In this document: positions 17,367 through 32,085 of the stretch, one piece after another
Layout of the letters: the number at the start of each line of letters is the position of its first letter
Position numbering within the stretch: the first letter of the stretch is position 1
Assembly (NCBI GenBank): GCA_024403455.1
Contig: JAKSRR010000015.1
Span: 1-64,000 of the forward strand
Direction: 5' to 3'
DNA: 64,000 nucleotides
Source of the DNA: Lachnospiraceae bacterium
Lineage (GTDB): Bacteria; Bacillota; Clostridia; Lachnospirales; Lachnospiraceae
Made by a program: the position numbers and the translations under genes
The notes under the pieces: generated by a model
What the model was told of the DNA's origin: nothing
The model's input: only the letters and a program-made list of their open reading frames with translations
Database searches by the model: none

Positions 17367-17378
17367 GAGGCGAACCAT

Positions 17379-17546: not shown

Positions 17547-17561
17547 ATGTCAGGTGCATTA

Positions 17562-17591: not shown

Positions 17592-17605
17592 AATAGTGGT
17601 TTTTA

Positions 17606-17681
17606 AAACAACAGAGGACGATTTTCGCGGCAATAACCTAGGGTATGCCCAAAGCGGAACCGCCCTCAAAAGGAGAGAAAT
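17606..17681 (+). promoter_or_regulatory. Former 5' leader of ychF with ribosome binding site
   Basis: A leader of about 90 bases with local GC well above its surroundings. It can form GCGG-AA-CCGC, GGCA..TGCC and GAGG..CCTC pairings, and ends in AAAAGGAGAG, a good ribosome site for the ATG at 17682. The pairings may be a regulatory fold of the original ychF mRNA. I could not match it to a known riboswitch class. The stretch from 17547 to 17941 holds no real gene: only this promoter and leader, the att site, the element end repeat and a terminator. Confidence 0.4.
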
Positions 17682-17697
17682 ATGAAACTAGGAATCG
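17680..17697 (+). repeat. attL core (18-bp direct repeat)
   Basis: ATATGAAACTAGGAATCG, identical to 32068-32085. It includes the first 16 bases of the ychF coding sequence. After it the reading frame continues for 13 more codons of element sequence and stops, giving an 18-residue dead-end peptide behind the old ychF promoter and ribosome site. Confidence 0.93.
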
Positions 17698-17763
17698 GTA
17701 ATTCACCTAAAATGTTGGAAAGTGTGAAAATGCCGTAAAATAAAGGGTTTCATAGAATTGGAA

Positions 17764-17824
17764 ATTTGATATAATCCTCATAAAACTATTAAAAATTTAA
17801 AAAAGGTTGCGGAAAGGTTGCGGA
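17764..17824 (+). repeat. Left subterminal direct repeat of the element (integrase arm site candidate)
   Basis: 61 bases that match 31954-32014 at about 51 positions without gaps. Both copies begin ATTTGATATAA and end in two spaced GTTGCG boxes (AAAGGTTGCGGA). It lies about 66 bases inside the left att core. Paired GTTGCG boxes near both ends are plausible arm-type binding sites for the integrase. Confidence 0.75.
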
Positions 17825-17856
17825 CTGCAACAAAAAGACGAAAAATGCCAATTGAA

Positions 17857-17882
17857 AGGAGAGATGTAACTCTCCTTTTTAG
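17857..17882. terminator. Hairpin terminator at the left end of the element
   Basis: AAAGGAGAG and CTCTCCTTT form a 9-base stem around ATGTAA, with a T-run. It would stop transcription coming from the old ychF promoter before the first element gene. Confidence 0.8.
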
Positions 17883-17941
17883 ATGTTATAATAATTGATA
17901 GTTAGTTTTCTGATTCCAGATTATCGGACAAAGGAGATATT

Positions 17942-18754
17942 ATGGAGAAAGTTGAATTTGAGACAGTTCTTCTGGAGGCGGCTAAACTTCCGATGGTAAA
18001 AGTAGACCGTGAGCTGTTTTTGAGAAAAGAACTTCGCAATCGTTACAGTAAGGAAGTTGTTGATTTGGCAATAGAATATAATCCTGCTTATGCAGGTATC
18101 ACAGTAGCTGAGATTGATAAGATTGCAAAGAGTTGCATTAATGCAGAAACTACACGAGTGACGGCTATATCAGCTGCAGCTGGAATACCTGGAGGCTTTG
18201 CAATGATAGGAACTGTACCTGCTGACTTGGCACAGTATTTTGGACATATTTTACGTGTCCTTCAGGAACTTATTTATCTCTATGGTTGGCAAGATTTAAG
18301 TCTTGATGAAAGCGAACTGAATGAAGAAACAAAGAATATATTAACTTTGTTTGTTGGAATTATGTTCGGGGTCAATGGGGCTGTAGGTGCGGTTAATAAA
18401 ATTGCTGGACAGGTGGCAAAGCAGGTGGCAAAGAAATTGCCTCAAAAAGCATTAACAAAAGGTGTGATATATCCTATTGTCAAGAAAGTCTGCGCTTTGT
18501 TAGGTGTAAAAATGACGAAGGATATTTTTGCAAAAGGAGTTTCTAAGGCTGTTCCTGTCATCGGGGCTGTAGTATCAGGAGGGCTTACATTTGCTACTTT
18601 TAAGCCTATGTCAGGAAAACTTAAGAAGTATTTGGAATCGTGTAAGGTGGCAGATGTATCTTATTATGAGAAAACTCGTAATGAAGAAATCATTGAAGTA
18701 GATGTTGATGATATTGATGTAAGCGATATTGGTGACGGAGACCAAGAAAATTAG
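17942..18754 (+). CDS. EcsC-family-like protein
   Basis: A 270-residue protein. The centre (about 75-125) has the Gly/Ala-rich amphipathic pattern PGGFAMIGTVPADLAQYF followed by LRVLQELIYLYGW, which resembles the EcsC family (small membrane-associated proteins of unknown molecular role). Further hydrophobic Gly-rich stretches follow near 140-155 and 195-220, and the C-terminus is strongly acidic (about 250-270). It is the first gene of the element, on its own, behind AAAGGAGATATT and ahead of a terminator. EcsC-like proteins recur on mobile elements and plasmids, but I know no proven function there. Confidence 0.6.
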   Translation: MEKVEFETVLLEAAKLPMVKVDRELFLRKELRNRYSKEVVDLAIEYNPAYAGITVAEIDKIAKSCINAETTRVTAISAAAGIPGGFAMIGTVPADLAQYFGHILRVLQELIYLYGWQDLSLDESELNEETKNILTLFVGIMFGVNGAVGAVNKIAGQVAKQVAKKLPQKALTKGVIYPIVKKVCALLGVKMTKDIFAKGVSKAVPVIGAVVSGGLTFATFKPMSGKLKKYLESCKVADVSYYEKTRNEEIIEVDVDDIDVSDIGDGDQEN

Positions 18755-18786
18755 TGGTAAGAAAGTTGCGAATATCAATTGAGTAT

Positions 18787-18818
18787 AAAGAGAGGAGTTA
18801 CTTTTCCTCTCTTTTTTT
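18787..18818. terminator. Bidirectional terminator
   Basis: AAAGAGAGGA pairs with TCCTCTCTTT (10 bases) and is followed by a T-run on the plus strand. It lies between the convergent EcsC-like gene and the minus-strand gene ending at 18798, and can serve both; the minus-strand gene's last codons overlap the hairpin. Confidence 0.8.
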
Positions 18819-19151
18819 GATTCGGGGCAGAATTGTAAGTGCATCTTCAACAGACCATCCATTCGCTACACGCCATTTGTATGTTTTTCGGCAGATTCCA
18901 TACTTTTGACACATTAGCGTTTCGGAACGATATCTTATTCCCTTATGGTCATAGCATGTTGTTCCTCCATTGGCTTTAGCTGGCGTTGTCAGTGCTTTTT
19001 CGAGGTCCCACTTATAATAATTAAGCCTTCTGGACAAACAGGCTTGTGTAAGACTATAAGCCCTTGCCATCTCGGTAAGTGTTGAGTAGTTATTGCCTAG
19101 GTGGTCTTTGCATTCTTTGCTGTGAGTCCAGTTAAATTTTCGTTTGCGCAT
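18798..19151 (-). CDS. Small protein with two tandem helix-turn-helix-like modules
   Basis: 117 residues made almost only of two related modules of about 45 residues. The first starts DHLGNNYSTLTEMARAYSL and ends WDLEKALTTP; the second starts DHKGIRYRSETLMCQKYGI and ends WSVEDALTIL. The shared plan is D-H-x-G-x-x-Y, an S/T helix, R/K-rich turn, W-x-x-E/D-x-A-L. Such modules occur in phage and mobile-element proteins and are thought to bind DNA, so a DNA-binding role is likely but not shown. ATG 19151 has AAAAAGGAGATATAATC directly ahead. It lies just downstream of the unknown 208-residue gene and was probably co-transcribed with it. Confidence 0.65.
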   Translation of the reverse strand: MRKRKFNWTHSKECKDHLGNNYSTLTEMARAYSLTQACLSRRLNYYKWDLEKALTTPAKANGGTTCYDHKGIRYRSETLMCQKYGICRKTYKWRVANGWSVEDALTILPRIKKREEK

Positions 19152-19176
19152 GATTATATCTCCTTTTTGAGTTATC

Positions 19177-19803
19177 CTAGAAATCTGTGTCAAGGGTAAT
19201 GGTATGTAGATTATCGATGGCGTTTATTACATATGTTCTGAACAGACTGTTTTCTTGAAATGCCCTAATAAGATACATAAAATTGCTGACGCAAAACCCG
19301 ATATCTATTTTCCCCAAATCATCCAGTTTATCGACGAGTGAATCGAATATATCATCGTATTCAGCAATTTCATTGAAACTTTCGCACGTTAATTTATTGA
19401 TTTCCTTGTATATTTTTTCACTGTAGGAAGAAAAAGATATTGTCCAATTATCACGAGGTTCTAAAAGTTGAAAATCTCCGTTCATTTCTTGACGTGTCTG
19501 TTTTGAAAATAAAACATCATTTTTTTGCTCTAAAGCGATTTCGATACATACTGCTTCTTTAAACATATCTCTGAACTCCTCGTTTGCAATTAGCAGTAGA
19601 GTGATGAACGATATATTATTGAGCAAGTATAGAGCCAGATTTTTGTCTATAGCCTTGTACGAAGGTGGTGTATTGTAATCTACAGACAGTTTTATATTCT
19701 TTTGTATTGTCTTGGCATCCATATATGAGAATGAAGAGTAAATATTGGTCAGAAATTCGATGATAGCTGCCTCAGCATTAGGATCAACAGTTGGATTATA
19801 CAT
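19177..19803 (-). CDS. Unknown 208-residue protein
   Basis: I do not recognise this protein. It is predicted to be mainly helical and soluble, acidic, with one hydrophobic segment (LLNNISFITLLLIA, about 70-83) that is more likely a buried helix than a membrane anchor. No catalytic motif is visible. It shares a transcript with the small helix-turn-helix-like gene downstream (25 bases apart) and is divergent from the serine recombinase across a repeat-rich 190-base region. The position suggests element-specific cargo or regulation. Confidence 0.6.
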   Translation of the reverse strand: MYNPTVDPNAEAAIIEFLTNIYSSFSYMDAKTIQKNIKLSVDYNTPPSYKAIDKNLALYLLNNISFITLLLIANEEFRDMFKEAVCIEIALEQKNDVLFSKQTRQEMNGDFQLLEPRDNWTISFSSYSEKIYKEINKLTCESFNEIAEYDDIFDSLVDKLDDLGKIDIGFCVSNFMYLIRAFQENSLFRTYVINAIDNLHTITLDTDF

Positions 19804-19873
19804 AGTTGCGGCTCCTTTCTTGGTTGATTTTTGGTTTCACGATTGTAGCCAATGCGTTGGCTAACAGTATTTA

Positions 19874-19976
19874 GTATCAAAACTGACGAAGGTCAGAAAA
19901 GTATTAAAAAAATATATGTTTTGATTGAAAAAAATAACTACTTTTGATACAATAATGATATAGGTTAGTTTTGATA
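19874..19976. promoter_or_regulatory. Repeated TTTTGATA sites ahead of the serine recombinase (res or operator candidate)
   Basis: Four copies of a TTTTGATA-like half-site: GTATCAAAA at 19874-19882 (inverted), TTTTGAT at 19919-19925, TTTTGATAC at 19942-19950 and TTTTGATA at 19969-19976. There is also a CTGAC-GAAG-GTCAG hairpin at 19883-19896. Small serine recombinases often have their crossover and accessory sites just upstream of their gene, so this may be a res site; it may also be an operator between the divergent genes. Confidence 0.45.
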
Positions 19977-19995
19977 TTATTTTGGGGATTTTATT

Positions 19996-20697
19996 ATGAT
20001 ATATGGTTATTGTAGAATTTCAACAGCCAAACAATCGATAGAACGACAGATAAGAAATATTATAGCTGAATATCCGAGCGCAAAGATTATTCAAGAAGTT
20101 TTTACTGGTACGAAAATCCAAGGACGAGAAAAGTTCGAAAAATTAATTAAAGGCTTGAATGAAGGGGATACAGTTGTATTTGATTCGGTTTCGAGAATGA
20201 GTCGTGATGCGGAAGAAGGCATTGAGACATATTTTGAATTGTATGAACGAGGCGTTAATCTTGTTTTTTTGAAAGAACACTATATTGATACATCGCTCTA
20301 TGCCGAAAACTTGAAGGATAAGATTGAGCTGACAGGAGCAGACGAAGATGAAATATTTAAAGGCTTGAATAATTATTTTAGAAAACTTGCTGCTAAGCAA
20401 ATACGAATTGCTTTTGACCAGGCTGAGAAAGAAGTTGAAGATTTACGTCAAAGGACTAGAGAAGGTCTTGTTACTGCGAAAAATAATGGGAAACAAGTTG
20501 GTGCGGTGGCAGGTAAAAAGTTGGTTACCAAAAAATCTCTTGAAAGTAAGAAAAAGATGCAGAAACTTGCAAAAGATTTTGGTGGTCAAAACACTGATGA
20601 ACAAGTAATGGCAATTCTCGGAATTGCTCGAAATACATATTACAAGTATAAAAGAGAAATAATAGATGAAATTATAGAAAAAAGAGGTGACAAATAA
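19996..20697 (+). CDS. Small serine recombinase (resolvase/invertase type)
   Basis: A 233-residue protein with the N-terminal resolvase domain: catalytic Ser in YCRIST (about residue 9), the arginine motif SVSRMSRD (about 66-73), and a long helix, then a C-terminal helix-turn-helix (VMAILGIARNTYYKYKR, about 207-223). This is the size of resolvases and invertases, not of large serine integrases. Integration itself is probably done by the tyrosine integrase at the other end. The stop codon nearly touches dpnM, so it may be co-transcribed with the restriction-modification genes. A role in resolving multimers or plasmid-like dimers of the excised circle is inferred. Confidence 0.88.
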   Translation: MIYGYCRISTAKQSIERQIRNIIAEYPSAKIIQEVFTGTKIQGREKFEKLIKGLNEGDTVVFDSVSRMSRDAEEGIETYFELYERGVNLVFLKEHYIDTSLYAENLKDKIELTGADEDEIFKGLNNYFRKLAAKQIRIAFDQAEKEVEDLRQRTREGLVTAKNNGKQVGAVAGKKLVTKKSLESKKKMQKLAKDFGGQNTDEQVMAILGIARNTYYKYKREIIDEIIEKRGDK

Positions 20698-20698
20698 T

Positions 20699-21541
20699 AT
20701 GTCTTTTAAAAAGATGGGACCGTTCGTAAAGTGGGCAGGGGGAAAAGGACAGCTACTTGATAGAATACAGATGAGAATTCCAGATAATTTTAATTCGTAT
20801 TATGAACCATTTATTGGAGGTGGCGCTGTACTCCTTGGTGTTAAGCCAAGTAGTGCCGTTATAAATGACACAAATGAACAATTGATAAATGTTTATAGGC
20901 AACTAAAAAATGACCCAAGAGCAGTAATTAGAGCTGTGAATCAGTTGGATCAGTGCGGAAAGTGCGATAAAGATTTTTATTTAGAAACTAGAAATTTGTA
21001 CAATGAGAAAATAAAAAAACATGAGTTAGATGCTGAATGTGCAGGGCTTATGATATGGATAAATAAGCATTGCTTTAATGGATTGTACAGAGTTAATTCA
21101 AAAGGATTATTTAATGTTCCATATAATAATAAGCAGCTTGGTAAGTCAATAGATGAAGCAAATCTTATGAGTATAGGATATTATCTATCTCATTCAAACG
21201 TTGAAATATTATGTTCTGATTTTGAAGATGCATGTGAAAAAGTAAAAAAAGGTGATTTTGTGTATTTTGATTCACCGTATGTGCCAGTAAGCGAGACGGC
21301 ATCGTTCACGGATTATACAAAAGATGGATTCGGATATGAAGACCACAAGAGATTAGCGGAATTGTTTAGGCGACTTGATGGCTTGGGGGCTAAAGTTATG
21401 TTGTCGAATCATGATGTACAGTTAGTGCATGAATTGTATGATGGTTACAATATAGAATGTGTTGATGTAAAAAGAAATATAAATAGTGATGCAAAAAAAA
21501 GAAGTGGAAAAGAAGTAATAATAACAAATTATAAAATATAG
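20699..21541 (+). CDS. dpnM: DNA adenine methyltransferase, DpnM-type (GATC)
   Basis: A 280-residue D12-class N6-adenine methyltransferase. Motif I is FVKWAGGKGQLL (about 8-19), followed by YEPFIGGGA, and NGLYRVNSKGLFNVPY matches the M.DpnII/Dam group closely. Motif IV reads DSPY (about residue 198) instead of DPPY. It is the double-strand GATC methylase of a DpnII-type system. ATG 20699 follows AAGAGGTGAC by a good distance, one base after the recombinase stop. The next gene begins 1 base after its stop. The DSPY change affects a catalytic motif and is worth checking, although the rest of the protein is intact. Confidence 0.92.
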   Translation: MSFKKMGPFVKWAGGKGQLLDRIQMRIPDNFNSYYEPFIGGGAVLLGVKPSSAVINDTNEQLINVYRQLKNDPRAVIRAVNQLDQCGKCDKDFYLETRNLYNEKIKKHELDAECAGLMIWINKHCFNGLYRVNSKGLFNVPYNNKQLGKSIDEANLMSIGYYLSHSNVEILCSDFEDACEKVKKGDFVYFDSPYVPVSETASFTDYTKDGFGYEDHKRLAELFRRLDGLGAKVMLSNHDVQLVHELYDGYNIECVDVKRNINSDAKKRSGKEVIITNYKI

Positions 21542-21542
21542 G

Positions 21543-22343
21543 ATGAATATGAAAAAATATCTAAAACGGTCTGAAAAGATATACTATGAAGACGATTTGA
21601 GCGTCTTGGTTTTTGATGATACGTTTAATGCATTAAAAAAAATCAAACCAGGAACGATTGATATGATATTTTCGGACCCTCCGTACTTCTTGAGTAATGA
21701 TGGGGTTACGTGTAGTGGCGGAAAGATGGTATCAGTAAACAAGGGAAAATGGGATAAAGTTAATTCATTTAAGGAGAAACATTTGTTTAATCGTAAATGG
21801 TTGCGATTATGTTATAAGGCTTTAAGTCCAAATGGAACGATATGGATAAGTGGTACATATCATAATATTTATAGCGTTGGGGTTGCACTTGAAGAGGAAG
21901 GATTTAAGATACTCAATAATATTACTTGGAAGAAAACTAATCCACCACCTAATCTTGCGTGCAGATGTTTTACTCATAGTACAGAAACTATTATATGGGC
22001 AAAAAAAGATTTGAAAAAAGCAAGGCATACATTTAATTATGATTTGATGAAGGCGGAAAATGGTGGAAAACAAATGAAAGATGTTTGGGAGGGGAATCTT
22101 ACTAGTAAGAAAGAAAAAAAGTATGGCAAACATCCTACTCAAAAACCGATATATCTGCTTGAAAGAATTATAGCGGCATCCACCAACGAAGGGGACGTAG
22201 TTATGGACCCGTTTTGTGGTTCGTCAACGACTGGAATTGCGTGTAAAAAACTAGGACGTCAATATATAGGAATTGACAACAACGAAGAATATATTAAGTT
22301 ATCTAAAGCGAGGTTGGAAAATTATGGAAAAGAGGCTTTTTAG
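21543..22343 (+). CDS. dpnA: DNA adenine methyltransferase, DpnA-type
   Basis: A 266-residue beta-class N6-adenine methyltransferase. SDPPYFLSNDG (about 40-50) holds the catalytic DPPY, KHPTQKP is near 200, and DPFCGSSTTGIA (about 222-233) is the AdoMet loop. Segments such as KWDKVNSF and FKILNNITWKKTNP match DpnA closely. The known DpnA can methylate single-stranded DNA and so protects incoming plasmid strands in transformation; this would suit an element that moves as single-stranded DNA. It overlaps the restriction gene by 20 bases. The start may be ATG 21543 or 21549. Confidence 0.93.
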   Translation: MNMKKYLKRSEKIYYEDDLSVLVFDDTFNALKKIKPGTIDMIFSDPPYFLSNDGVTCSGGKMVSVNKGKWDKVNSFKEKHLFNRKWLRLCYKALSPNGTIWISGTYHNIYSVGVALEEEGFKILNNITWKKTNPPPNLACRCFTHSTETIIWAKKDLKKARHTFNYDLMKAENGGKQMKDVWEGNLTSKKEKKYGKHPTQKPIYLLERIIAASTNEGDVVMDPFCGSSTTGIACKKLGRQYIGIDNNEEYIKLSKARLENYGKEAF

Positions 22344-23178
22344 TTACTGGTTGGGAACGTTTAGAGAATCGATAAATGAATACACTTATTATACTGATTT
22401 TGAAAAAGTATATGAGAATGTAAATTCGGTGAAGGTAGAAATCAATATTTTGAATTCGCTTATTGGCTCTAAAAATATTGAGGTTGATTTTGAAAATATA
22501 ATCAATAGATATCCTGAGTGTTTAAATGTTATTCCGATTTTGTTGGCGGTGAGGTCTAATGAGATCTTCTGCCAAGATGAAAAAGGAGCTGTGAAATATA
22601 GGTTCGATAAGATGAGTGGTGGTGTAGAACAATATAAATATTTCATGAGAAAAACAGGATTGTTTGATATGCTACAAAACCATTTGATTGGAAATTTATA
22701 TGATTATGTTACAGGAGTTGAAGTTGGTCTTGGCTCTAACGGACGAAAAAATCGAGGTGGTCATCAAATGGAAGACCTTGTTGAGTCTTACATAAAGCAA
22801 AGCGGCGCAGAATATTATAAAGAGATGTATCTTACGGACATTGAAAATAAATGGGGAGTTGATTTGTCTTCGATTTCTGCTGAAGGAACGTCTACGAAAC
22901 GATGGGACTTTGTTGTAAAAACACCAGATAAAATATATGTTATTGAGACTAATTTTTATTCTGGAGGAGGCTCTAAATTAAATGAGACAGCTCGGTCATA
23001 TAAGATGATATCTGAAGAAAGTAAGTCGGTGAAAGACGTTGATTTTGTTTGGATAACAGATGGCGCTGGTTGGGTTTCTGCTAGAAGAAATCTGGAAGAA
23101 ACATTTAATACTATGGATTTAATATTTAATATAAAAGATATGGAAAACGGGATTCTTGTTGAACTATTCAATAAATGA
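22324..23178 (+). CDS. dpnB: Type II restriction endonuclease DpnII family (GATC)
   Basis: A 284-residue nuclease that cuts unmethylated GATC. It matches the DpnII/MboI family along its length: YYTDFEKVYENV, NSLIGSKNIEVDF, LQNHLIGNLYDYVTGVEVG, GRKNRGG, and the nuclease core WDFVVK...VIETNFYSGGGSKLNE with E and NFY at about residues 208-214. VWITDGAGW is also conserved. ATG 22324 lies inside the end of dpnA, behind AGGTTGG; a longer frame to 22273 would overlap dpnA by 71 bases. The full set dpnM-dpnA-dpnB is present and looks intact. Confidence 0.93.
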   Translation: MEKRLFSYWLGTFRESINEYTYYTDFEKVYENVNSVKVEINILNSLIGSKNIEVDFENIINRYPECLNVIPILLAVRSNEIFCQDEKGAVKYRFDKMSGGVEQYKYFMRKTGLFDMLQNHLIGNLYDYVTGVEVGLGSNGRKNRGGHQMEDLVESYIKQSGAEYYKEMYLTDIENKWGVDLSSISAEGTSTKRWDFVVKTPDKIYVIETNFYSGGGSKLNETARSYKMISEESKSVKDVDFVWITDGAGWVSARRNLEETFNTMDLIFNIKDMENGILVELFNK

Positions 23179-23219
23179 TATATATAGTATAATAAATAAA
23201 AACGTAGGAGGTATGTACT

Positions 23220-23480
23220 ATGGCTTGGGGTAGTTATGCGGAATGTCCTCAGTGTGGAGTTGTAGCGCACGGTGATGACGAAATTGAACAAATATTTGGC
23301 TTTAGATATGGGGGAACAAAGCCACAGTCGTGGTGTCGCTCTTGCAGAAGTTCTGGTAGTGGTTCAAGTAGTGAAAGGTTAAGCGTCTATGATGCAGCGG
23401 ATATCTGGATGAGTAGTGGAATGGATGAAGATTACACCTTTGGTTATTCCGAGGATGAACTTCGCAGAGCACTTAATTAG
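23220..23480 (+). CDS. Small zinc-ribbon-like protein downstream of the DpnII operon
   Basis: 86 residues: four cysteines in two pairs (CPQC at about 9-12 and CRSC at about 39-42) form a probable zinc ribbon, followed by a Ser/Gly linker and an acidic tail (DEDYTFGYSEDELRR). Function unknown. A very strong ribosome site (GTAGGAGGTATG) precedes the ATG. It lies 41 bases after the endonuclease gene and may be co-transcribed with it, though it is not a standard part of DpnII systems. Confidence 0.65.
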   Translation: MAWGSYAECPQCGVVAHGDDEIEQIFGFRYGGTKPQSWCRSCRSSGSGSSSERLSVYDAADIWMSSGMDEDYTFGYSEDELRRALN

Positions 23481-23513
23481 TATTAAAATGTTACATAGGA
23501 AGAAAAGAACGTT

Positions 23514-23696: not shown

Positions 23697-23727
23697 TTTG
23701 GTGTAAAAGAGTTTACTAGTATTATGT

Positions 23728-24098
23728 TGTGACATTTATTCGAAAAATATGTCACAAGCCAGAAATGCTGTAATTCAAGGGTTTGCGCATAATATGCTAT
23801 GTTGTGACATTTTTGCGTGACAAATAATATCTGGAAATATGTCACATGAGAATGCAGTATTTATGCGGGTTATAGACGATAAAACTCATATTGTGACAAA
23901 TGTGACATATTATTTTGTGACTATTATAATGATTTTATATTTTGATTAAAATATGTGTAATGGGTGTAATGGTGTATAATATGGTGTAATATGTGTAATT
24001 TAGTGTTGAAATACGTGGACATACGTGATATAATAAAGCTACGGCAAGAGGTAATTTGCTGTGTGATATTGTGTAATTTTGTGTAAATTTTGTGTAAT
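23728..24098 (+). other. Iteron array: candidate replication origin of the element
   Basis: Two kinds of short repeats fill a gene-free stretch right before the replication initiator. TGTGACA or its complement occurs at 23728, 23750, 23803, 23816 (CGTGACA), 23840, 23892, 23901 and 23916 (TGTGACT). GTGTAAT occurs at 23955, 23964, 23984, 23993, 24071 and 24092, with variants at 23972 and 24081. Two ATACGTG copies lie between them (24010-24027). This is the expected layout of Rep binding sites (dso or iteron origin). No clear pMV158-type nick sequence TACTACG was found. Nothing else was seen in this 630-base gap apart from the structured RNA. Confidence 0.7.
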
Positions 24099-24110
24099 GG
24101 AGGTGAGCTG

Positions 24111-25226
24111 GTGAAAAAGCTCAGGAAAGATTCTACATGCTCGACAATGGCTGTAAAGTGTTATGACGAGCAACTTTTAACTGGCGAGCGTGGATTGATA
24201 GAAGCAATAAAGGCTGTTTCAGCTGACGAAATTCAAATCTTAGCAATTCATCATAACCGAAGCATTTCCAAGGCTCATTGGCATGTCATTATGAAGACAA
24301 GTCGAAGAGAGAAAAAAATGAGAGTAGTTTCGACGCTAAAGAAGCTTTCGATAGTTTTCCGTGATGGCATAGATGATGAACTTTGGAATAATCGAGGTGT
24401 TGAAACAGTAGGGAACTTTAGCAATTACGCAACTTATCTTCTTCATGAAACAGAAGCTGCAAAGAAAGACGGTAAAGAGTCTTATGATAAAAAAGAGTAT
24501 ATTACAAATCTGATGCCAGATGAAGTGGAAAAGATTTTGGATGGATATACGGTAAGAAGTAAAAGCAAAATTTCTTCGAATGATTATTATGATATGGCGA
24601 GAGCGGCTGGTTATAACTTGGAAGATGTTAATGCTTTTATAAGTGGTCTTGGTGCTACTAATATGAAACCGACAGCAGAGGCAAGTATTAGAAAGGCTTA
24701 TGATTACGGTGTTAAGTCTAGAATGCAGAAGCATGAACGACTGCATAGATTGCTGATAAGTATTGTTAAGCCCAAAACATTAGATGATAAGAGACTTCGA
24801 TATTCGATTGAAAAGGCATTAGATGATAAACGACTGTTTGTTCATAGAAGCGGTGAGCCGCTTTTTGTGGAAGCAAGCACGGAAGTTCTAGTAACAGATG
24901 ATAGATATTTACGTCATTGCACATCGAATGATTACATAGTTGAGATTAAAGATGACATTGCTGGCAAAGTGATTTGGGCAGGAAATATTGTGATCTACAT
25001 TGATTCGATAGCTATCAAAGATGGTAATTGCTTTGTATGCAGTATTGAGAATGATAAACTTATTTGTGATATTGTTCCCAAGTTTGATGCTCCTAATTCT
25101 GAACAAGAGCGAATTAAAAGTGAATATTTGAAATTCCGTGATAGATTCAACGCAGCATATGCAGAGTATGCACAAGTTACAATAACTGAAAAAGTTGATT
25201 TCTCGGATATTAATAATTACAGCTAA
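24111..25226 (+). CDS. RepB-family (pMV158/pLS1) HUH replication initiator
   Basis: Rolling-circle replication initiator of 371 residues. The N-terminal domain resembles RepB of pLS1: the metal-binding His pair in SKAHWHVIM (about 55-63) and the segment NYATYLLHETEAAKKD (about 104-119), where RepB has its catalytic Tyr, then YDKKEYITN. RepB itself is about 210 residues, so about 200 C-terminal residues are extra; they are charged, with no motif I know. The GTG at 24111 lies behind GGAGGTGA; a longer frame would start within the last iteron. An iteron array directly upstream supports its role as initiator of the excised element. Confidence 0.82.
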   Translation: MKKLRKDSTCSTMAVKCYDEQLLTGERGLIEAIKAVSADEIQILAIHHNRSISKAHWHVIMKTSRREKKMRVVSTLKKLSIVFRDGIDDELWNNRGVETVGNFSNYATYLLHETEAAKKDGKESYDKKEYITNLMPDEVEKILDGYTVRSKSKISSNDYYDMARAAGYNLEDVNAFISGLGATNMKPTAEASIRKAYDYGVKSRMQKHERLHRLLISIVKPKTLDDKRLRYSIEKALDDKRLFVHRSGEPLFVEASTEVLVTDDRYLRHCTSNDYIVEIKDDIAGKVIWAGNIVIYIDSIAIKDGNCFVCSIENDKLICDIVPKFDAPNSEQERIKSEYLKFRDRFNAAYAEYAQVTITEKVDFSDINNYS

Positions 25227-25440: not shown

Positions 25441-25462
25441 TTATAAAAAGGAGGTCATTGAT

Positions 25463-25762: not shown

Positions 25763-25780
25763 TGAATAGGGAGAAATAAT

Positions 25781-26101: not shown

Positions 26102-26117
26102 TGCTATTGTTATAGCT

Positions 26118-26204
26118 CCCTGCAAGGGCGAAAAACTGTTTGTTGTACTGCCAACGGCAGTATGACAAACGTTGTTTTGAGCAAGGTATGACAGAGCCAT
26201 ACCT
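26118..26204 (+). other. Candidate origin of transfer (oriT)
   Basis: Three hairpins in under 90 bases lie directly ahead of the relaxase gene. They are CCCT-GCA-AGGG (26118-26128); a 15-base stem GTTTGTTGTACTGCC with GGCAGTATGACAAAC (26138-26170, two G-U pairs, loop AAC); and AGGTATG-ACAGAGC-CATACCT (26184-26204, counted from the first A). MobV relaxases nick next to such inverted repeats upstream of their own gene. The exact nick site cannot be read. Confidence 0.6.
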
Positions 26205-26229
26205 GTGATAAAAGAAAATGAAAGGAAAT

Positions 26230-27360
26230 ATGAAAATGAAATTTACTATATCGAATAGCCAAGGCGGACATTCAGAGGAACATTCGAGGCGTTCGTATTC
26301 TCCGTTCTCATCGGAGTCATCATTAACAAAACATAATATTGTTGTCTACGATTGCGGAGACGATAGAGAACATCTTAATAGAATAGCAGAACCATACATT
26401 CGTGCATATAACATGAAACAGAAACGCAAAGATAGAATGAAGGATTATGAAAAAGATTATGTTGCTGCGCTTGAAGATGGTCGTGCCTGCTACGGAACAG
26501 GAGAGCAAAGAGAAAAAGCTTTTCATCATGATGTTATCCAAATCGGGAACCATGATAATCTTGGAGTTACAGACAAAATGTTTAACACGGATTATTGGCG
26601 TTCTCTTAAGCGCGATGCAAGATATGCAGAAGCAAGTGATTATGTTAAACGTCATCTGAATAGGAATCCTGATGTAAAAAGAGCGATTATGATTTTGAAA
26701 CAAATTGCGGAAGAAATTAGAGATAACAAAGATGATAAGTATAGTCATGTGTTGGTACATGGATTAACAATCCATGTAGATGAACCAGGGGGGACCCCAC
26801 ATCTGGATTTTCGTTATTCGATTTTTACTGATAATGAAAAGAAGGGACTTCCGTGGAGAATATCGGACCATAAGGGGCTTCAAAAAATGGGATATGAGAC
26901 AACTCCGACACAGACAGCGCTTCAAGCATTTCGCGAATCTGTTAATTCGAGAATAGAAGTGTTGATGCGCCAATATGGATGGGAGCGTGAATATAAAAAT
27001 GAGCATCGTAAGCATCTTACAACGGCGCAGTATGAAGCGGAGCAACGTTTGAAGCAAGCGGAAGAACTTGCAGAAAATATTGTTCAAGAAGCAAAAGAAA
27101 GTGCAGAGATTGAGCTTGCTCATGCAACGGAAATTAGAAAAGAAGCTGCAAGAAAGAAAAAAGAAGCGGAGCAAAAAATTAAGGATGCAATTGAATTTAA
27201 GAATCAGATGGAACAGCTTGTTTGCTCCGAAATTGGACAAAGAGTCGTCACAAATCAGCGAAATGATGAGGTTGAAATTTATCGACGGAAGAGGTCTAAG
27301 CGTGGAGGAAAGATTTGTAATGATGATTGCTCTATTGAACCAACAAAGGATGATAAGTAG
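26230..27360 (+). CDS. MobV-like relaxase (Pre/Mob plasmid recombination family)
   Basis: A 376-residue relaxase that would nick oriT and pilot the strand during mobilization. Family features are an N-terminal HN motif (KHNIVV, about 34-39), FHHDVIQIGNHDN (about 99-111) and the metal-binding region IHVDEPGGTPHLDF (about 182-195), then VNSRIEVLMRQYGWERE and a long charged coiled coil (about 260-330). In MobV the metal motif is HxDExxPHxH; here there are two extra residues and the third His is missing. I chose ATG 26230, next to AAAGGA; ATG 26218 or 26236 are alternatives. No coupling protein or secretion genes are present, so transfer needs a helper. Confidence 0.75.
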   Translation: MKMKFTISNSQGGHSEEHSRRSYSPFSSESSLTKHNIVVYDCGDDREHLNRIAEPYIRAYNMKQKRKDRMKDYEKDYVAALEDGRACYGTGEQREKAFHHDVIQIGNHDNLGVTDKMFNTDYWRSLKRDARYAEASDYVKRHLNRNPDVKRAIMILKQIAEEIRDNKDDKYSHVLVHGLTIHVDEPGGTPHLDFRYSIFTDNEKKGLPWRISDHKGLQKMGYETTPTQTALQAFRESVNSRIEVLMRQYGWEREYKNEHRKHLTTAQYEAEQRLKQAEELAENIVQEAKESAEIELAHATEIRKEAARKKKEAEQKIKDAIEFKNQMEQLVCSEIGQRVVTNQRNDEVEIYRRKRSKRGGKICNDDCSIEPTKDDK

Positions 27361-27376
27361 GGGAGGAACTTGAACG

Positions 27377-27616
27377 ATGGAAAATTACACGGATATTTAT
27401 TTTTATTTGCAAGAAGACGAGTTGTGGAGGCTCATAGATATGGTTGGGAATATTGTTGCCGAGATGATTAAAAGAGATGCGATACATATAGAGTACCATG
27501 GATATCCGCAGACTCCAGAAGTAATGGTTGATGTTTTGGAAAAAGGGAAATATGTTTTTGAGGGTTATGTGAAAAATAGACTTAAGGAAATTAATGATGG
27601 GTGTGACCGAGAATAA
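27377..27616 (+). CDS. Unknown 79-residue acidic protein
   Basis: Not recognised. A small acidic, probably alpha/beta protein with aromatic N-terminus (YTDIYFYLQEDELWRLI). It follows the relaxase by 16 bases behind GGGGAGGA and ends just before a bidirectional terminator, so it is the last gene of the mobilization transcript. Confidence 0.55.
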   Translation: MENYTDIYFYLQEDELWRLIDMVGNIVAEMIKRDAIHIEYHGYPQTPEVMVDVLEKGKYVFEGYVKNRLKEINDGCDRE

Positions 27617-27624
27617 AAAAATAA

Positions 27625-27661
27625 GCCATATGAGTCTCCTAAGTGGGGAGACTCGTATGGC
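27625..27661. terminator. Bidirectional terminator between convergent transcripts
   Basis: GCCATATGAGTCTCC pairs with GGAGACTCGTATGGC (15 bases, one G-U pair) around TAAGTG. The A-run to its left (27614-27624) gives a T-run for the minus strand. It serves the mob transcript and the minus-strand AAA+ operon, whose last gene ends at 27667. Confidence 0.9.
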
Positions 27662-27666
27662 TATTC

Positions 27667-27972
27667 TTATAAGTATTTACACAGCACGTCGAATGTGTCT
27701 TCGTCAAAATACTGATTAAGCATATTTAGTATTTCGTAGAAGCTATCTTGGTGGAAGAATACATGCTCGTGCTCAGTATTTAATACAATAACTGAATCGA
27801 GATGTGTTTCGAGGATTGCGCTAAACATCATAACATCGTTTAGCATGTCCCCTGTTACGAATTTGAACTCGTTGCTTGGATGGTGACTGTTCAATTCGTT
27901 TTTGATGATGTGCAGTTCTTTATTTGTGCAGCTTTGCCCAGTTGGAGTAATTACATATACTTGTTGTTCCAT
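27667..27972 (-). CDS. Unknown 101-residue protein, last gene of the AAA+ operon
   Basis: Not recognised. A soluble small protein, acidic in the C-terminal half, rich in His and Asn (NTEHEHVFFHQDSFYEIL). No motif known to me. It lies 17 bases after the DUF5688 gene on the same transcript, with GAGGAGATG-like ribosome site before its start. Confidence 0.55.
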   Translation of the reverse strand: MEQQVYVITPTGQSCTNKELHIIKNELNSHHPSNEFKFVTGDMLNDVMMFSAILETHLDSVIVLNTEHEHVFFHQDSFYEILNMLNQYFDEDTFDVLCKYL

Positions 27973-27989
27973 AAGCTATTGCATCTCCT

Positions 27990-28820
27990 CTAATCGTTCA
28001 CAGAAAAGATGAAGGCTTTTTCGGCGAGCTGTTCTTCTTTGGCGACACAGCCTTTATTTACATCCACGACCATTGCGGAGATTGCATCGAGGTCGGTATT
28101 ATCATCAGCTGGTAGAATGATAACTTCGTGAATGGACGAGAAAATGATGACAATCTTATCAAAACCCATAGCTTTTGCCCATTGCTTTACATAGTCCATA
28201 TTTGTTACAACGGCTGCACCTTTCATTCTCAGGTGGTTTGAAAATATGTACATAGGAACATCATCAATATTGTCATATATGGCTGCATCATCAGGCATCA
28301 TGGAGCAAAGCACTTCGGCCATTGTTTCGATTTTTATTTCCTGAGAAGTATGTTCTGAAGCGAGGCGCCAAGCTTCTTCTTCTGTAATATTCACGGACTT
28401 CAGATGTTCACTTGACATCTTTACGGAGAAAGTGCCATCTACATTAGCTTCATCACGGATATACAGATATTCTATAATGTCGTCAAATGCACTATCACGT
28501 GTCAAATATTTTGTGTCAGAGCCCTTTTTTTCAAGACCTAAGAACAGATGCTCTCGGATGTATGTGGGGTCTTTGAAGATGTCGATATCAATATCAATAC
28601 CTGCTTGGTCATAGCACTGCTTTACATAAACTGCTGCTTCTTCATCTGTGAAATCATCCGTTAAAAATCTGTCCACGTAGATGACGGGGGCGATATGTTG
28701 TTCGCCTTCGTGGAAACATAAACCGATGAATTCTACGCAATTTTTTTTGACAGTTTGAACTTTAGGGTACAAGTGATATTTCTTATTAATAACATTTACA
28801 ATTCCATTAATAGTAGCCAT
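27990..28820 (-). CDS. DUF5688 family protein
   Basis: 276 residues; the layout resembles DUF5688 proteins, which are common in Lachnospiraceae and other Clostridia and have no known function. The N-terminal VKKNCVEFIGLCF followed by ISPTIY-like APVIYVDRF is typical. A central helical part is followed by a second alpha/beta domain (about 180-270: AAVVTNMDYVKQWAKAMG, then IVIIFSSIHEVIILP), a pattern seen in domains that feed back a numeric response or bind peptides. No catalytic motif is seen. ATG 28820 is preferred, with TAAAAGGAGG ahead. It is 16 bases from the AAA+ gene, so the two products may act together. Confidence 0.65.
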   Translation of the reverse strand: MATINGIVNVINKKYHLYPKVQTVKKNCVEFIGLCFHEGEQHIAPVIYVDRFLTDDFTDEEAAVYVKQCYDQAGIDIDIDIFKDPTYIREHLFLGLEKKGSDTKYLTRDSAFDDIIEYLYIRDEANVDGTFSVKMSSEHLKSVNITEEEAWRLASEHTSQEIKIETMAEVLCSMMPDDAAIYDNIDDVPMYIFSNHLRMKGAAVVTNMDYVKQWAKAMGFDKIVIIFSSIHEVIILPADDNTDLDAISAMVVDVNKGCVAKEEQLAEKAFIFSVND

Positions 28821-28836
28821 TTTGTGATTCCTCCTT

Positions 28837-29880
28837 TTATAATTCATCAAAATGTTCAAATAAATAATTGTCTAGTTGGCACTGTATTGCCGAAGTAGTT
28901 GCTCGCACTCCGAGCCCAGAATTATAAGCGTTTTCGGCTATATTTGTGAGCTCATTTGCGGAAAGTACATGCTGGTTTATAAAACCTGTTTCGAGACCGT
29001 ACGTTTTCTCTAGCTTTTTTACTGGTGATGCATCGTGCGAAGTAAGTAGATACTTGTAATCATCAATAGATAAGGGATGAATATTAACGATGCGACCGAT
29101 TCGACTCGCGACTTCTGGTATCATGCCAAAATCGATAAGATTTTGGATTGTTAGCTCGTTTTCAAAAGCTTTAACTTGCTTTCTTTCTGCTCCAAATCCA
29201 AGACCGATGCTACTTGCCTTATTTGCTTCATTTTTAGCTGCAACGGCAAAGGAACCAGTAAAGATCCAACTGATTGTTTCGAGATTGACGTAACGAGTGT
29301 CCATTTCAGTTTTATACATGTAGTACTTAAACGAAGGTTGCAGCAATGTAAGAAGCTCTGATTGAACAGATGCGCTTACATTCTCACGGTCTCTAGTGAA
29401 AGATGGCGTCATCATTTTGTCTGCTTCATCGAAAACAATAATATAGGGTGTGTGGTCATGCTTTTGAATATTTATCTCTCGCAGTGGGGTACAGATTTTG
29501 TTTTGCCCTGTAAAACCACTTTTTGTCATGCTACTCGCATCGCATATATAAACGGCATCGTATAAATAATCTCTAACTGTCTGCCATAGTAGCGTCTTGC
29601 CAGAGCCAGGTGGTCCAACAAAAACAGCGCTGTTGGGAATTCCGTGAACATGGTTGTATAAACATATTGCGACGGCTTTTGCTGCTTCGTCTTGGTGGTA
29701 TACCTTTGTCTTTAAGAATTCATATATGAGACGGGGGTCGGATAATGTTTCATGGCGAAACATTTCTTCCTCATATTTTTCGAGTTCTCGTTCTTCAATA
29801 TCGAATGGGCAATCATCGAAATCAGTTTCTTCCCATTGAGAAGATAAGTTTTTATCTTTTACTTCAGCTTCGCATTTCAT
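28837..29880 (-). CDS. ClpX-like AAA+ unfoldase without zinc-binding domain
   Basis: A 347-residue AAA+ ATPase close to ClpX over its ATPase core. Walker A is GPPGSGKT (about 90-97), Walker B FDEADKM (about 149-155), the sensor region ends WIFTGSF, the IGF-loop-like segment reads SSIGLGFGAE, then IDFGMIPEVASRIG and the sensor 2 region GLGVRATTSAI. The pore-1 loop GYVG of ClpX is GFTG here. The N-terminal C4 zinc domain is replaced by about 50 acidic residues. It could unfold or remodel element proteins (Rep, relaxase, integrase), with or without host ClpP. It is in the middle of a four-gene minus-strand operon. Confidence 0.82.
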   Translation of the reverse strand: MKCEAEVKDKNLSSQWEETDFDDCPFDIEERELEKYEEEMFRHETLSDPRLIYEFLKTKVYHQDEAAKAVAICLYNHVHGIPNSAVFVGPPGSGKTLLWQTVRDYLYDAVYICDASSMTKSGFTGQNKICTPLREINIQKHDHTPYIIVFDEADKMMTPSFTRDRENVSASVQSELLTLLQPSFKYYMYKTEMDTRYVNLETISWIFTGSFAVAAKNEANKASSIGLGFGAERKQVKAFENELTIQNLIDFGMIPEVASRIGRIVNIHPLSIDDYKYLLTSHDASPVKKLEKTYGLETGFINQHVLSANELTNIAENAYNSGLGVRATTSAIQCQLDNYLFEHFDEL

Positions 29881-29898
29881 GGCGTATGCAGTCTCCTT

Positions 29899-30261
29899 TC
29901 AAGAAGCTGCATACGCATTTCTCGCTTCAATAATGAAGCGTTGGATGTCTGCGCATGACATTTTCTGCTTTTCATATTTGCCGTCTGCATTTTTAATGCT
30001 AATGTTACGCTGTTCAGTACTTTTGCCAAGAAAGAGGTTGTAACAGTTGTTTATGGTAGAACCATCGCGTCGCGTACTTTCTTTGACCATTGACAGCGGT
30101 AGTGTGAAAGTAGCCCAAGCATCATTAAGACGAAATGCTACAGACATGAAGATGTTATTGTTTTCGGATGCCCTTTTACGGCATAATGCACGTGGATAAT
30201 TATTAATGAATACAGATGATTCTTCTACTGTGGCATCGATATTGTTTTTCTTTTTAGCCAT
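29899..30261 (-). CDS. Unknown 120-residue basic protein, first gene of the AAA+ operon
   Basis: A small basic protein starting MAKKKNN, with the central segment SVFINNYPRALCRKRA and a C-terminal helix (SCADIQRFIIEARNAY). No known family. The even spread of Arg and Lys and the predicted beta-rich centre could suit nucleic acid binding, but there is no motif to prove it. ATG 30261 follows CAAGGAGAATAAC. The leader on its mRNA holds a perfect AAGCATTC-TT-GAATGCTT palindrome. Confidence 0.55.
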   Translation of the reverse strand: MAKKKNNIDATVEESSVFINNYPRALCRKRASENNNIFMSVAFRLNDAWATFTLPLSMVKESTRRDGSTINNCYNLFLGKSTEQRNISIKNADGKYEKQKMSCADIQRFIIEARNAYAAS

Positions 30262-30295
30262 ATTGTTATTCTCCTTGTTTTTTATAGCTACATTG

Positions 30296-30313
30296 AAGCA
30301 TTCTTGAATGCTT
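30296..30313. promoter_or_regulatory. Palindromic operator or hairpin ahead of the AAA+ operon
   Basis: AAGCATTC-TT-GAATGCTT, perfect over 8 bases per arm, 35 bases upstream of the start of the first minus-strand gene. The divergent excisionase gene starts at 30448, so the site lies in the control region shared by both directions. It may be bound by a regulator or fold in the mRNA. Confidence 0.5.
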
Positions 30314-30447
30314 GAATTTATAATTTTTTTCTTTATAGAATAGAGGGGGTATGGTATATTGTGATTGGTTAGTGTGAAGCATTTGCTTTGGAAAAAATTT
30401 ATGAATGTGTTTGCCGTAGTCACCGTCCTTTCAGGAAAGGCACACGA

Positions 30448-30678
30448 ATGAAAAACGCAAACACTAACCAGATGACGCTATCGATTGACAAAAAATATGC
30501 ACTCACAATTGAAGAAGCTTCTGTTTACTTTAGTATTGGTGAAACCAATTTACGTGAGATATGCAGAAATGATGTGCTAAACAATACTTTTACATGTAAG
30601 GTAAAAAGTAAAACTGTAATCATACGTGAAAAGTTTGAAAAACATATGGTTGAGCATCATGTTTTGTTAGCAGGATAG
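30448..30678 (+). CDS. xis: Excisionase (Tn916 Xis-like)
   Basis: 76 residues. A winged-helix excisionase that helps the integrase remove the element. The segment YALTIEEASVYFSIGETNLR (about 13-32) is the typical Xis helix-turn-helix, followed by KTVIIREKFEKHM. ATG 30448 lies behind AGGAAAGG; a longer frame from 30388 is unlikely. It precedes the integrase gene on the same strand but a strong terminator lies between, so the two are probably expressed separately. Confidence 0.85.
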   Translation: MKNANTNQMTLSIDKKYALTIEEASVYFSIGETNLREICRNDVLNNTFTCKVKSKTVIIREKFEKHMVEHHVLLAG

Positions 30679-30681
30679 TGG

Positions 30682-30717
30682 ATATGGTCAGAGAGTAAAA
30701 TCTCTGACCATATTTTT
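30682..30717 (+). terminator. Rho-independent terminator between xis and int
   Basis: ATATGGTCAGAGA pairs with TCTCTGACCATAT (13 bases, perfect) around GTAAAA, followed by TTTT. It ends the xis transcript. Confidence 0.9.
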
Positions 30718-30736
30718 GGTTCGTACTCTTAAAAAG

Positions 30737-30783
30737 GTTGCGCAACTTTTTTTCTCGACAAACGACGGAAAGCGTGGTATGAT
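30737..30783 (+). promoter_or_regulatory. Integrase promoter with GTTGCGCAAC palindrome
   Basis: TCGACA (30755-30760) and TATGAT (30778-30783) are 17 bases apart. Eight bases upstream of the -35 box lies GTTGCGCAAC (30737-30746), a 10-base palindrome made of two opposed GTTGC units, the same core as the GTTGCG boxes of the end repeats. The integrase may thus bind its own promoter; this is inference. Confidence 0.6.
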
Positions 30784-30820
30784 AAACGATGGCATTTTTT
30801 CGTCTTGGAAAGGGGAAACT

Positions 30821-31960
30821 ATGGGAAAGGATTTAAGAGGTAAAGAACTTGGCAAAGGCATAGTTCAACGAAAAGACGATAAAAAGTATGTTGCTTTTTA
30901 CAACGATAGTACTGGGAAAAGAGTTCAAAAAAGATTCGATACATTGACGGAAGCAAAACGCTGGCGTGAAAAGGCTGTATATGAAGAAAAAAATGACTTG
31001 GCACTTTTACAGCCAGAGATGACGGTGAATTCATGGTTCGAGTTTTGGATGAAGGAAAAAGCCACAACTATTAAATTCAATACAAAGCGTAACTATACTG
31101 AACGTTTTGAAAATGATATTAAACCCGTTGTTGGAAATATGCGAGTGAAGGATGTTCGTCCTATTCATTGTCAGGCCGTTTTGAATCGAATGGCGGAAAA
31201 TGAATATGCAGGATCAACGATAAAACAGACATTGAATACGATGGTTACAATGTTTTGGGCTGCTGTAGAAAATCGATTAATACATAGTACACCAGTAACA
31301 AAGAGTGGTGTGAAACTTCCGCGAGATGTAGAACAGAATATTGATTTTTTGACAAGGGAAGAACAAAAAGCTTTCCTGGAGGTGGCAAAAGACTATGCGT
31401 ATTATGAGCAATTTTTTTTGATACTACAAGAAGGATTTAGAACTGGTGAAATCATAGGCTTGAAGTGGGATTGTGTTGATTTTGAACGTCGAGAAATTAC
31501 AATTGATAAGACGCTAGAATATAGATATAGTACAGGAACTTGGCGCTGGGAAACACCAAAAACAAAAAATGGTTGTAGAGTTGTTAAGATGACTAGGGCT
31601 GCACATGATATGTTGAAAGAACTACAAGAAAAGCCTAGTAATGTTAATGAGAAAACACCTGAAGAATTTAAGAATCTAGTATTTTTAAATAGAACAGGCT
31701 TCCCAACCAAAAACTCCACATATGATGCGGCACTCGTGAAAAGATGTGAACAGGCGGGCGTTAAGAAAATATCAATGCATGACCTGAGGCATACAATGGC
31801 AACTAGGTTTTGTGAACAACCGATGCCTAATTATAAATTCCTCAGTAAAATGCTAGGACATTCTTCTATAAAAATAACTTTGGACTTATATGTTCATTTA
31901 GACGAAGAAACTAAAGTTGAGGCTATTGAATCGTTCAGTGATTATCTCGAAACGATTTGA
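30821..31960 (+). CDS. int: Tyrosine recombinase / integrase (Tn916 family)
   Basis: 379 residues. The N-terminal arm-binding domain (about 12-60: GIVQRKDDKKYVAFYND then RFDTLTEAKRW) is followed by the SAM-like core-binding domain (about 65-170) and the catalytic domain. Catalytic residues: Arg in GFRTGEIIGL (about 207), His-x-x-Arg in MHDLRHTMATRF (about 320-323), His in LGHSSI (about 347) and the Tyr nucleophile in TLDLYVHL (about 356). ATG 30821 follows AAAGGGGAAA. It lies about 110 bases from attR, reads towards ychF and would integrate the element there. Confidence 0.93.
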   Translation: MGKDLRGKELGKGIVQRKDDKKYVAFYNDSTGKRVQKRFDTLTEAKRWREKAVYEEKNDLALLQPEMTVNSWFEFWMKEKATTIKFNTKRNYTERFENDIKPVVGNMRVKDVRPIHCQAVLNRMAENEYAGSTIKQTLNTMVTMFWAAVENRLIHSTPVTKSGVKLPRDVEQNIDFLTREEQKAFLEVAKDYAYYEQFFLILQEGFRTGEIIGLKWDCVDFERREITIDKTLEYRYSTGTWRWETPKTKNGCRVVKMTRAAHDMLKELQEKPSNVNEKTPEEFKNLVFLNRTGFPTKNSTYDAALVKRCEQAGVKKISMHDLRHTMATRFCEQPMPNYKFLSKMLGHSSIKITLDLYVHLDEETKVEAIESFSDYLETI

Positions 31961-32014
31961 TATAAAGCTCATAAAACTTATTAAACTTGAAAATAAGTTG
32001 CGAAAAGGTTGCGG
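31954..32014 (+). repeat. Right subterminal direct repeat of the element (integrase arm site candidate)
   Basis: About 51 of 61 positions match 17764-17824 in the same orientation. It starts inside the last codons of int and ends with GTTGCGAAAAGGTTGCGGA, about 54 bases from the attR core. Within it TTGATA and TATTAA are 16 bases apart, a possible weak promoter towards ychF. Confidence 0.72.
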
Positions 32015-32035
32015 AAACAAAAATAAAATGAAAGG

Positions 32036-32056
32036 AACCCTTGAAAAATAAGGGTT
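32036..32056 (+). repeat. Hairpin between int and ychF
   Basis: AACCCTT-GAAAAAT-AAGGGTT, a perfect 7-base stem without T-run, 13 bases before the ychF start. It is carried by the element and now lies in the leader of ychF, next to its new ribosome site. Confidence 0.55.
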
Positions 32057-32067
32057 TGAGGTAAGAT

Positions 32068-32085
32068 ATATGAAACTAGGAATCG
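32068..32085 (+). repeat. attR core (18-bp direct repeat)
   Basis: Identical to 17680-17697. It supplies the start codon and the first bases of ychF; bases upstream of it (GAGGTAAG, 32058-32065) come from the element and replace the original ribosome binding site. Confidence 0.93.

Follow-up and report, generated by a model that had tools for sequence, protein, structure and literature searches.

A 14.4-kb integrative element very probably sits in the first codons of ychF, the gene of a conserved translation ATPase, in the first 64,000 nt of contig JAKSRR010000015.1 of a Lachnospiraceae bacterium (assembly GCA_024403455.1; this whole stretch is called the window below). The element appears to sever the native leader of the gene and to rebuild the gene with a ribosome site and a start of its own, so that the protein is unchanged. 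Its ends are marked by the 18-bp core ATATGAAACTAGGAATCG, which is present in identical copies at 17680-17697 (the left attachment site, attL) and 32068-32085 (attR), 14.4 kb apart, and is the sole 18-mer occurring more than once in the window. It was confirmed that this core covers the ychF start, as a first-pass annotation made from the letters of the window had claimed. When the 2.23-Mb genome was scanned with the 16-bp sequence ATGAAACTAGGAATCG, allowing up to two mismatches, the two exact sites were both cores and one other site was found at two mismatches; the reversed 16-mer, scanned as a control, gave no match. On the left side, AAAAGGAGAGAA precedes the core, and the ribosome site AAAAGGAG (17668-17675) leads to an ATG at 17682 and to a frame that translates as MKLGIGNSPKMLESVKMP and stops after 18 codons, which is the dead end that had been described. 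On the right side, GAGGTAAGATAT precedes the core, and the ATG at 32070 opens the intact 375-codon ychF behind element DNA. The integrase gene (30821-31960) and ychF run in the same direction, and 109 nt separate the stop of the former from the ATG of the latter. The att core is located within the 5' end of a conserved gene, and the full-length frame is restored by element DNA, the donated letters being visible in relatives.

Natural pairs of empty and occupied sites in these relatives fix the exchanged letters. In genus g27 (Lachnospiraceae), the leaders were compared by alignment A2 (row G436_attR was excluded, and G436 was read outside this alignment). In G475, G470, and G432, ychF follows immediately on a native leader of ~95 bp; in G391, G443, G430, G448, and G439, this leader runs into dead-end frames (attL). 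The first-pass annotation had proposed that its reading would fail if related genomes lacking the element did not have the left leader joined to ychF; in these relatives the leader is joined to ychF in the empty genomes. The picture is complicated by G439, which also has a native-leader ychF on another contig, by G428, whose ychF has the native leader and is preceded by a further copy of that leader 2.4 kb upstream, and by G430, in which no ychF was found. G391 carries both junctions on one contig, 52 kb apart. The empty site of G470 reads ATGAAGCTGGGCATAG, and attL and attR of G391 read ATGAAGCTGGGAATCG and ATGAAACTAGGCATAG, respectively; split at the junction, these are ATGAAGCTGGGCATAGTTGG for the empty site, ATGAAGCTGGG followed by AATCGAAAG for attL, and ATGAAACTAGG followed by CATAGTTGG for attR. 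The comparison revealed that the element donates the ribosome site, the ATG, codons 2-3, and the GG of codon 4. Since the two G391 junctions differ in this way from empty G470, the attR letters ATG AAA CTA GG are element-derived and AAG CTG was replaced synonymously. G443 gives the same picture of the exchange, with its junctions on separate contigs, and the right ends of G391, G436, and G443 are one sequence over 120 nt and through ATGAAACTAGG, becoming host-specific from the next base. A second and weaker pair was found in genus g106, in which the attL leader of G156 and the leader of the empty ychF of G311 have AAAATACGCTT and GAAATGAGGTTTTTA in common. The claim that the element swaps the control region and keeps the protein holds, as read from the sequences, in these relatives; in the window, the severed left leader is presumably native.

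These observations lead to the following scheme. The Tn916-type tyrosine integrase would recombine the att core of the element with the first codons of ychF. The right end of the element would be a ready-made ychF start with a ribosome site and an ATG, followed, by analogy with G391, by synonymous codons as far as the GG of codon 4. Integration would disconnect the native promoter and leader, which then run into the 18-codon dead end, and would rebuild the YchF frame intact. ychF would be translated from the ribosome site of the element, probably on RNA coming from the integrase side, and excision should restore the native leader. The suggestion of the first-pass annotation that ychF expression may change with excision is compatible with this scheme, and the element makes it possible to test whether the amount of this translation ATPase is governed by mobile DNA instead of by the host.

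Relatives of the integrase occupy the ychF start in many gut and rumen bacteria. Among genomes of the same genus, 8 of 35 (own included) gave an integrase match at E ≤1e-60; in seven of these eight (own included) at least one integrase lies directly before ychF, and in the eighth (G017) the integrase is followed by the core and then by other DNA. When 30 ychF loci from the window genome and its relatives, some of them on short contigs, were compared, an integrase of the group lay no more than 1.6 kb upstream in eight, own included. Species genomes yielded 420 loci that encode a relative of the integrase, and the best 80 of the 420 were kept. The ychF start is directly downstream in 70 of these best 80 (one, L070, with a deletion in ychF), the core is followed by other DNA or a contig end in seven, the contig stops earlier in one, and neither core nor ychF follows in two. 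A cultured commensal, Roseburia hominis An869 (L116), is among the carriers of the group. Of 392 genomes sampled across the order, 48 gave an integrase match at E ≤1e-70. Thirty loci were taken from this sample: ychF lies downstream in 16 (own included), the core is followed by other DNA in one, and neither is present in 13, most of the 13 being lower-scoring. When 143 distinct integrases without internal stops were placed in a quick tree, the label 'ychF core next', carried by 93 rows, required 9 changes compared with a mean of 41.6 after shuffling, a clustering which near-copies favour and which forms no single clean clade. The window integrase falls in a starred set of 11 rows, all 11 with the core next, and thereby groups with others that precede the ychF start.

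Near-identical integrases whose right ends are identical or differ by one base were found across host families, in L103, L104, and L106 (Agathobaculum, a Lachnospiraceae genome, and Faecalibacterium, all metagenome-assembled genomes, MAGs) and in L128, L130, L132, and L134 (Massilioclostridium, Faecalicatena, an Oscillospiraceae MAG, and a Clostridium). Because such copies reside in different host families, related elements appear to have moved recently. A search of viral contigs with the single window integrase sequence detected no relatives, and a search with an integrase alignment detected 49. The integrase is encoded on five contigs from IMG/VR (L179, L180, L182-L184; 12-104 kb), together with a ribosome site and an ATG plus 30 nt encoding MKLGIVGLPN, after which other DNA follows; such a joint reads as attP or as a tandem joint, on contigs that are only predicted to be viral. 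No integrase match was found in the plasmid collection. In L156 and L157, related integrases precede a different gene, perhaps another 5'-end target, whose start we take to resemble that of dipicolinate synthase subunit B.

To compare the rebuilt starts, 117 distinct ychF starts were collected: an integrase of the group lies upstream of 91, no such gene precedes 22 over at least 1500 nt, and four have too little upstream DNA. The median anti-Shine-Dalgarno pairing energy was -8.8 for the 91 occupied starts and -8.8 for the 22 without integrase, a comparison set that is not purely native in that some of its leaders resemble element right ends (L003 equals the integrase-bearing L024 over 38 nt). 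An energy of -4 or better was reached by 88 of 91 occupied starts and by all 22 of the others, whereas only 22% of 1820 positions from the same 400 nt reached it. The distance from the integrase stop to the ychF ATG is 50-200 nt in 82 of the 91, shorter in four, and longer in five. In L091 and L092 it is 6 nt, so that the ribosome site would sit at the end of the integrase gene, and the sequence makes co-transcription of the two genes likely. The first-pass annotation had described a ribosome site and a 7-bp hairpin on the right side, and both are present in the window. An inverted repeat at or above the threshold of the script was detected in 13 of 80 distinct right ends and in 3 of 22 leaders without integrase, compared with 3-4% of shuffles. 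Being above shuffles but no commoner in occupied than in other leaders, the hairpin was rejected as a conserved RNA signal or family trait.

The element does not always stand alone at this site. In L067, L083, L258, L253, and L315-L321, the core is joined to another left end, which indicates a tandem insertion or a circular joint. In g27 (G446, G447, G460), stretches of ~2.7-6.8 kb between cores lack an integrase of the group. At the right ends of these cassettes there is in most cases a block TTTACA-17-TAATAT, together with an inverted repeat, a ribosome site, and ATGAAACTAGG; the block is missing at one of four cores in G446, and one copy in G312 is cut short. The block could be a promoter, a terminator, or both. 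Among the selected cassette proteins that were searched, YhcG/DUF1016, AAA_14/DUF4143, AbiEi/AbiEii, and RhuM-Fic were found, and a type IIG system is present in the G447 unit that has an integrase. Given the DpnII system and the PDC-S30 match of the window, and AbiE, YhcG/DUF1016, RhuM-Fic, and the type IIG system in relatives, defence genes of gut and rumen bacteria may be sought at the ychF start. A broader reading, which we offer tentatively and hold to be a little short of probable, is that modules of several kinds use the ychF start of Clostridia as a common landing pad. Integrase elements, predicted viral genomes, and integrase-less defence cassettes would stack there in tandem, each bringing along a ychF start that consists of a ribosome site, an ATG, the first codons, and, for many cassettes, the promoter-like block. 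The module next to ychF would control it, the cassettes would move with the resident integrase acting in trans, and ychF output would report the right-hand member of the array.

Several observations weigh against the view that the window element replaced a native start in the manner described. The 18-bp identity of the two cores masks the crossover point in the window. Codon 3 appears host-derived in L118/L121 and L062-L065, and the occupied start in G185 is ATGAAGCTCGG, so either the elements do not all donate equally many codons or the crossover is not always the same. L101 and L115 encode close integrases among the best 80 and have neither the core nor ychF downstream. Promoter-like hits were not clearly above chance either at 17300-18000 (4, with 2.3 expected, standard deviation 1.4) or at 30300-32300 (8, with 6.6 expected, standard deviation 3.0). 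No element-free genome of the species of the window was found, and in 34 other genomes of the genus the left leader of the window gave only the core plus a few bases and stray matches of at most 37 bases. galE, the left neighbour, gave no tblastn match at 1e-6 in L002-L059, which cover up to 20 kb around ychF or the integrase in relatives. Since no element-free conspecific is at hand and none of the 34 congeners has a recognisable copy of the leader, the left flank could stem from an older element, now partly deleted, whose right end it was; the window would then be what is left of a tandem array. Joints between a core and another left end are frequent at the ychF start (L067, L083, L258, L315-L321), and galE was not found beside ychF in the loci of relatives, both of which fit this explanation. 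We nevertheless regard it as unlikely, because neither another integrase of the group (at E 1e-60) nor another exact core was found in the own genome, and the last 80 bases of the left flank have no 9-mer in common with the right end besides the core.

The junction might instead be an expression switch like SpyCI at mutL, in which ychF is low when the element is integrated and high when it is excised, to the gain of the host. Excerpts of two reports describe parallels: in pneumococcus there was less ychF RNA when a satellite prophage was held integrated just upstream of ychF (PMC6375853), and SpyCI at the mutL 5' end blocks mutL transcription (PMC4689407). In the window, no promoter-like hit is found between the integrase stop and the ychF ATG, the best ones lying within and before the integrase gene at chance level. 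Across the family, however, the ribosome sites of the elements equal other ychF leaders in strength, which points to upkeep and not to silencing, and the analysed sequences gave no sign of regulated excision; a switch is thus rather doubtful. That the element is a fixed remnant and its repeated core a scar that no longer recombines would agree with the single copy in one assembly. Such a remnant is improbable in view of the intact xis, int, and cores and of the recent movement of relatives with near-identical integrases and right ends in different host families (L103/L104/L106; L128/L130/L132/L134), and the window copy may well be mobile. A chance repeat or an assembly error could be suspected in an incomplete assembly (82%, 35 contigs), but it is already refuted by the recurrence of the arrangement at 90 other distinct occupied starts, and the core is the only repeated 18-mer of the window. 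A rebuilt ychF start behind an integrated element remains our preferred explanation.

Some candidates for further evidence were rejected. Codon 3 is not a general sign of occupation, because ATGAAATTAGG or ATGAAACTAGG is present in 77 of 91 occupied and in 18 of 26 other starts, and the donated-codon argument accordingly rests on the g27 junctions. The left leader of G330, taken as an empty-site test, matched G473 before a different gene beginning ATGAAACTAG. Over 111 bp, the leader of this kinase-like gene (L248, MKLDIIGSVASGKTT) shows 98% identity with the sequence flanking the G330 element on the left, which makes the gene a possible secondary att site. No viral contig had the exact window-leader pattern.

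Elements that take over the 5' ends of target genes are already known (SXT, the dusA islands, SpyCI, and the pneumococcal prophage upstream of ychF), and the present family, widespread over several families of Clostridia, joins the few that seize a housekeeping gene at its 5' end. It is of interest chiefly for how widely it occurs, for the rebuilding of the gene with synonymous codons, and for the arrays. The recombination module is of the Tn916/Tn1549 type: the excisionase matches the Tn916-Xis Pfam family, the tyrosine integrase has an N-terminal SAM-like domain, and the best PDB sequence match of the integrase is 6emy ('Int protein'), which we take to be Tn1549 Int. Tn916 and Tn1549 have low target specificity, whereas the integrase group of the window is tied to ychF.

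The following comparisons draw on parts of the cited papers. As in the present group, dusA-specific integrases and islands tie an integrase family to the 5' end of one conserved gene (Farrugia 2015, PMC4482086; IMEVchUSA3, PMC8409611), and the element replaces the target 5' end and brings expression signals (PMC4482086, PMC8409611). They differ in that the target is dusA rather than ychF, which places the window element outside that class, and in that the cases considered are from Gammaproteobacteria. The N-terminus is altered there (61% identity over 35 residues), whereas YchF is unchanged here, and their directionality factor is the PrtN-like RdfN, in contrast to the Tn916-type Xis of the window (PMC8409611). 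The SXT/R391 integrative and conjugative elements likewise use a tyrosine integrase and the 5' end of a translation-factor gene, prfC (PMC2791158), which receives a new promoter and N-terminus as stated in PMC8409611. Unlike the window element, they are conjugative elements of Gammaproteobacteria and alter the N-terminus. SpyCI islands insert at the 5' end of mutL, and one strain transcribes mutL from a promoter within int; they differ in residing in Streptococcus, in making every examined strain except one a mutator, and in excising in step with growth (PMC3430984). The term ribosome does not occur in the main text of that paper. The pneumococcal satellite prophage (PPH005 group) has the same gene as its target, with int immediately upstream, and its integration state is linked to the ychF RNA level (PMC6375853, PMC8637289, PMC10383233). 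Its att sequence CCCTTTTTGTGTTA is, however, intergenic and alters a predicted -35 region, whereas the window core consists of the start codon and first codons. No report of an att site at the ychF start codon in Clostridia was found in the open-access literature, which was searched under the name ychF and not under other gene names; the parts seen of a paper on gut integrative mobilizable elements (PMC12904643, 2026) and of a staphylococcal prophage paper naming YchF (PMC8460829) do not describe the site.

The features of the element are listed in the table.

Features of the element and of the rebuilt ychF start (positions in the window)
Feature	Position	Strand	Remarks
Left leader with ribosome site AAAAGGAG, severed from ychF	17668..17679	+	
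attL core, 18 bp	17680..17697	+	
18-codon dead-end frame beginning as ychF	17682..17738	+	
Left-end repeats common with right end (ATTTGATATAA, CTCATAAAACT, two overlapping AAAGGTTGCGGA)	17764..17824	+	Candidate arm sites
Cargo with PDC-S30 match (PADLOC candidate defence family)	17942..18754	+	E 1.6e-108; no Pfam match
Serine recombinase (resolvase family)	19996..20697	+	
D12 N6-adenine DNA methyltransferase	20687..21541	+	
Second DNA methyltransferase (N6_N4_Mtase)	21543..22343	+	
DpnII-type restriction endonuclease	22318..23178	+	E 2.4e-108
Possible replication initiator	24090..25226	+	Weak Rep_OBD match, under curated cut-off
Protein of a PHROG family of unknown function	26218..27360	+	No Pfam match
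ClpX-like AAA ATPase	28837..29880	-	
Excisionase, Tn916-Xis family	30445..30678	+	
Tyrosine integrase, ychF-start group	30821..31960	+	
Right-end copies of shared repeats (ATTTGATATAA, CTCATAAAACT, AAAAGGTTGCGGAAA)	31955..32017	+	
7-bp hairpin AACCCTT/AAGGGTT	32036..32056	.	
Element-supplied ribosome site GAGGT	32058..32062	+	
attR core, 18 bp, contains ychF start codon	32068..32085	+	
ychF, 375 codons, intact	32070..33197	+	

Both ends carry common repeats (AAAGGTTGCGGA, CTCATAAAACT, ATTTGATATAA) that look like candidate arm sites of the integrase. Past the core at the left end, the ychF-like letters AATGTTGGAAA had a shuffling p of ~0.008 in the window, and two of the 16 other left ends gave p 0.02-0.03, the p values being uncorrected for 17 tests; this hints at most at a capture of the att site from a ychF gene. 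For the protein encoded at 26218-27360, a mobilization role would be a guess from its motifs, and Pfam, NCBIfam, and PDB gave no support for a relaxase, the gene expected of an integrative mobilizable element; at a cut-off of E 1e-15, it has one relative (34% identity) among 195 other genomes. The serine recombinase adjoins the DpnII-type system within an element that has a tyrosine integrase too. Outside the element, a short frame at 17380-17547 downstream of galE is possibly a shortened galT, since its start presumably resembles galT.

Two relatives have unusual ychF loci. In G428 (L317, 1768-4276), the native ychF leader occurs twice, 2.4 kb apart, with small genes between, which looks like an old or reduced insertion. 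In G014 (RUG13912; L054 near 2850, L070 6735), the ychF behind the element right end begins with MKLG followed by LFNSL; compared with L053, eleven residues bearing the P-loop are lost in frame exactly at the att site in this one assembly.

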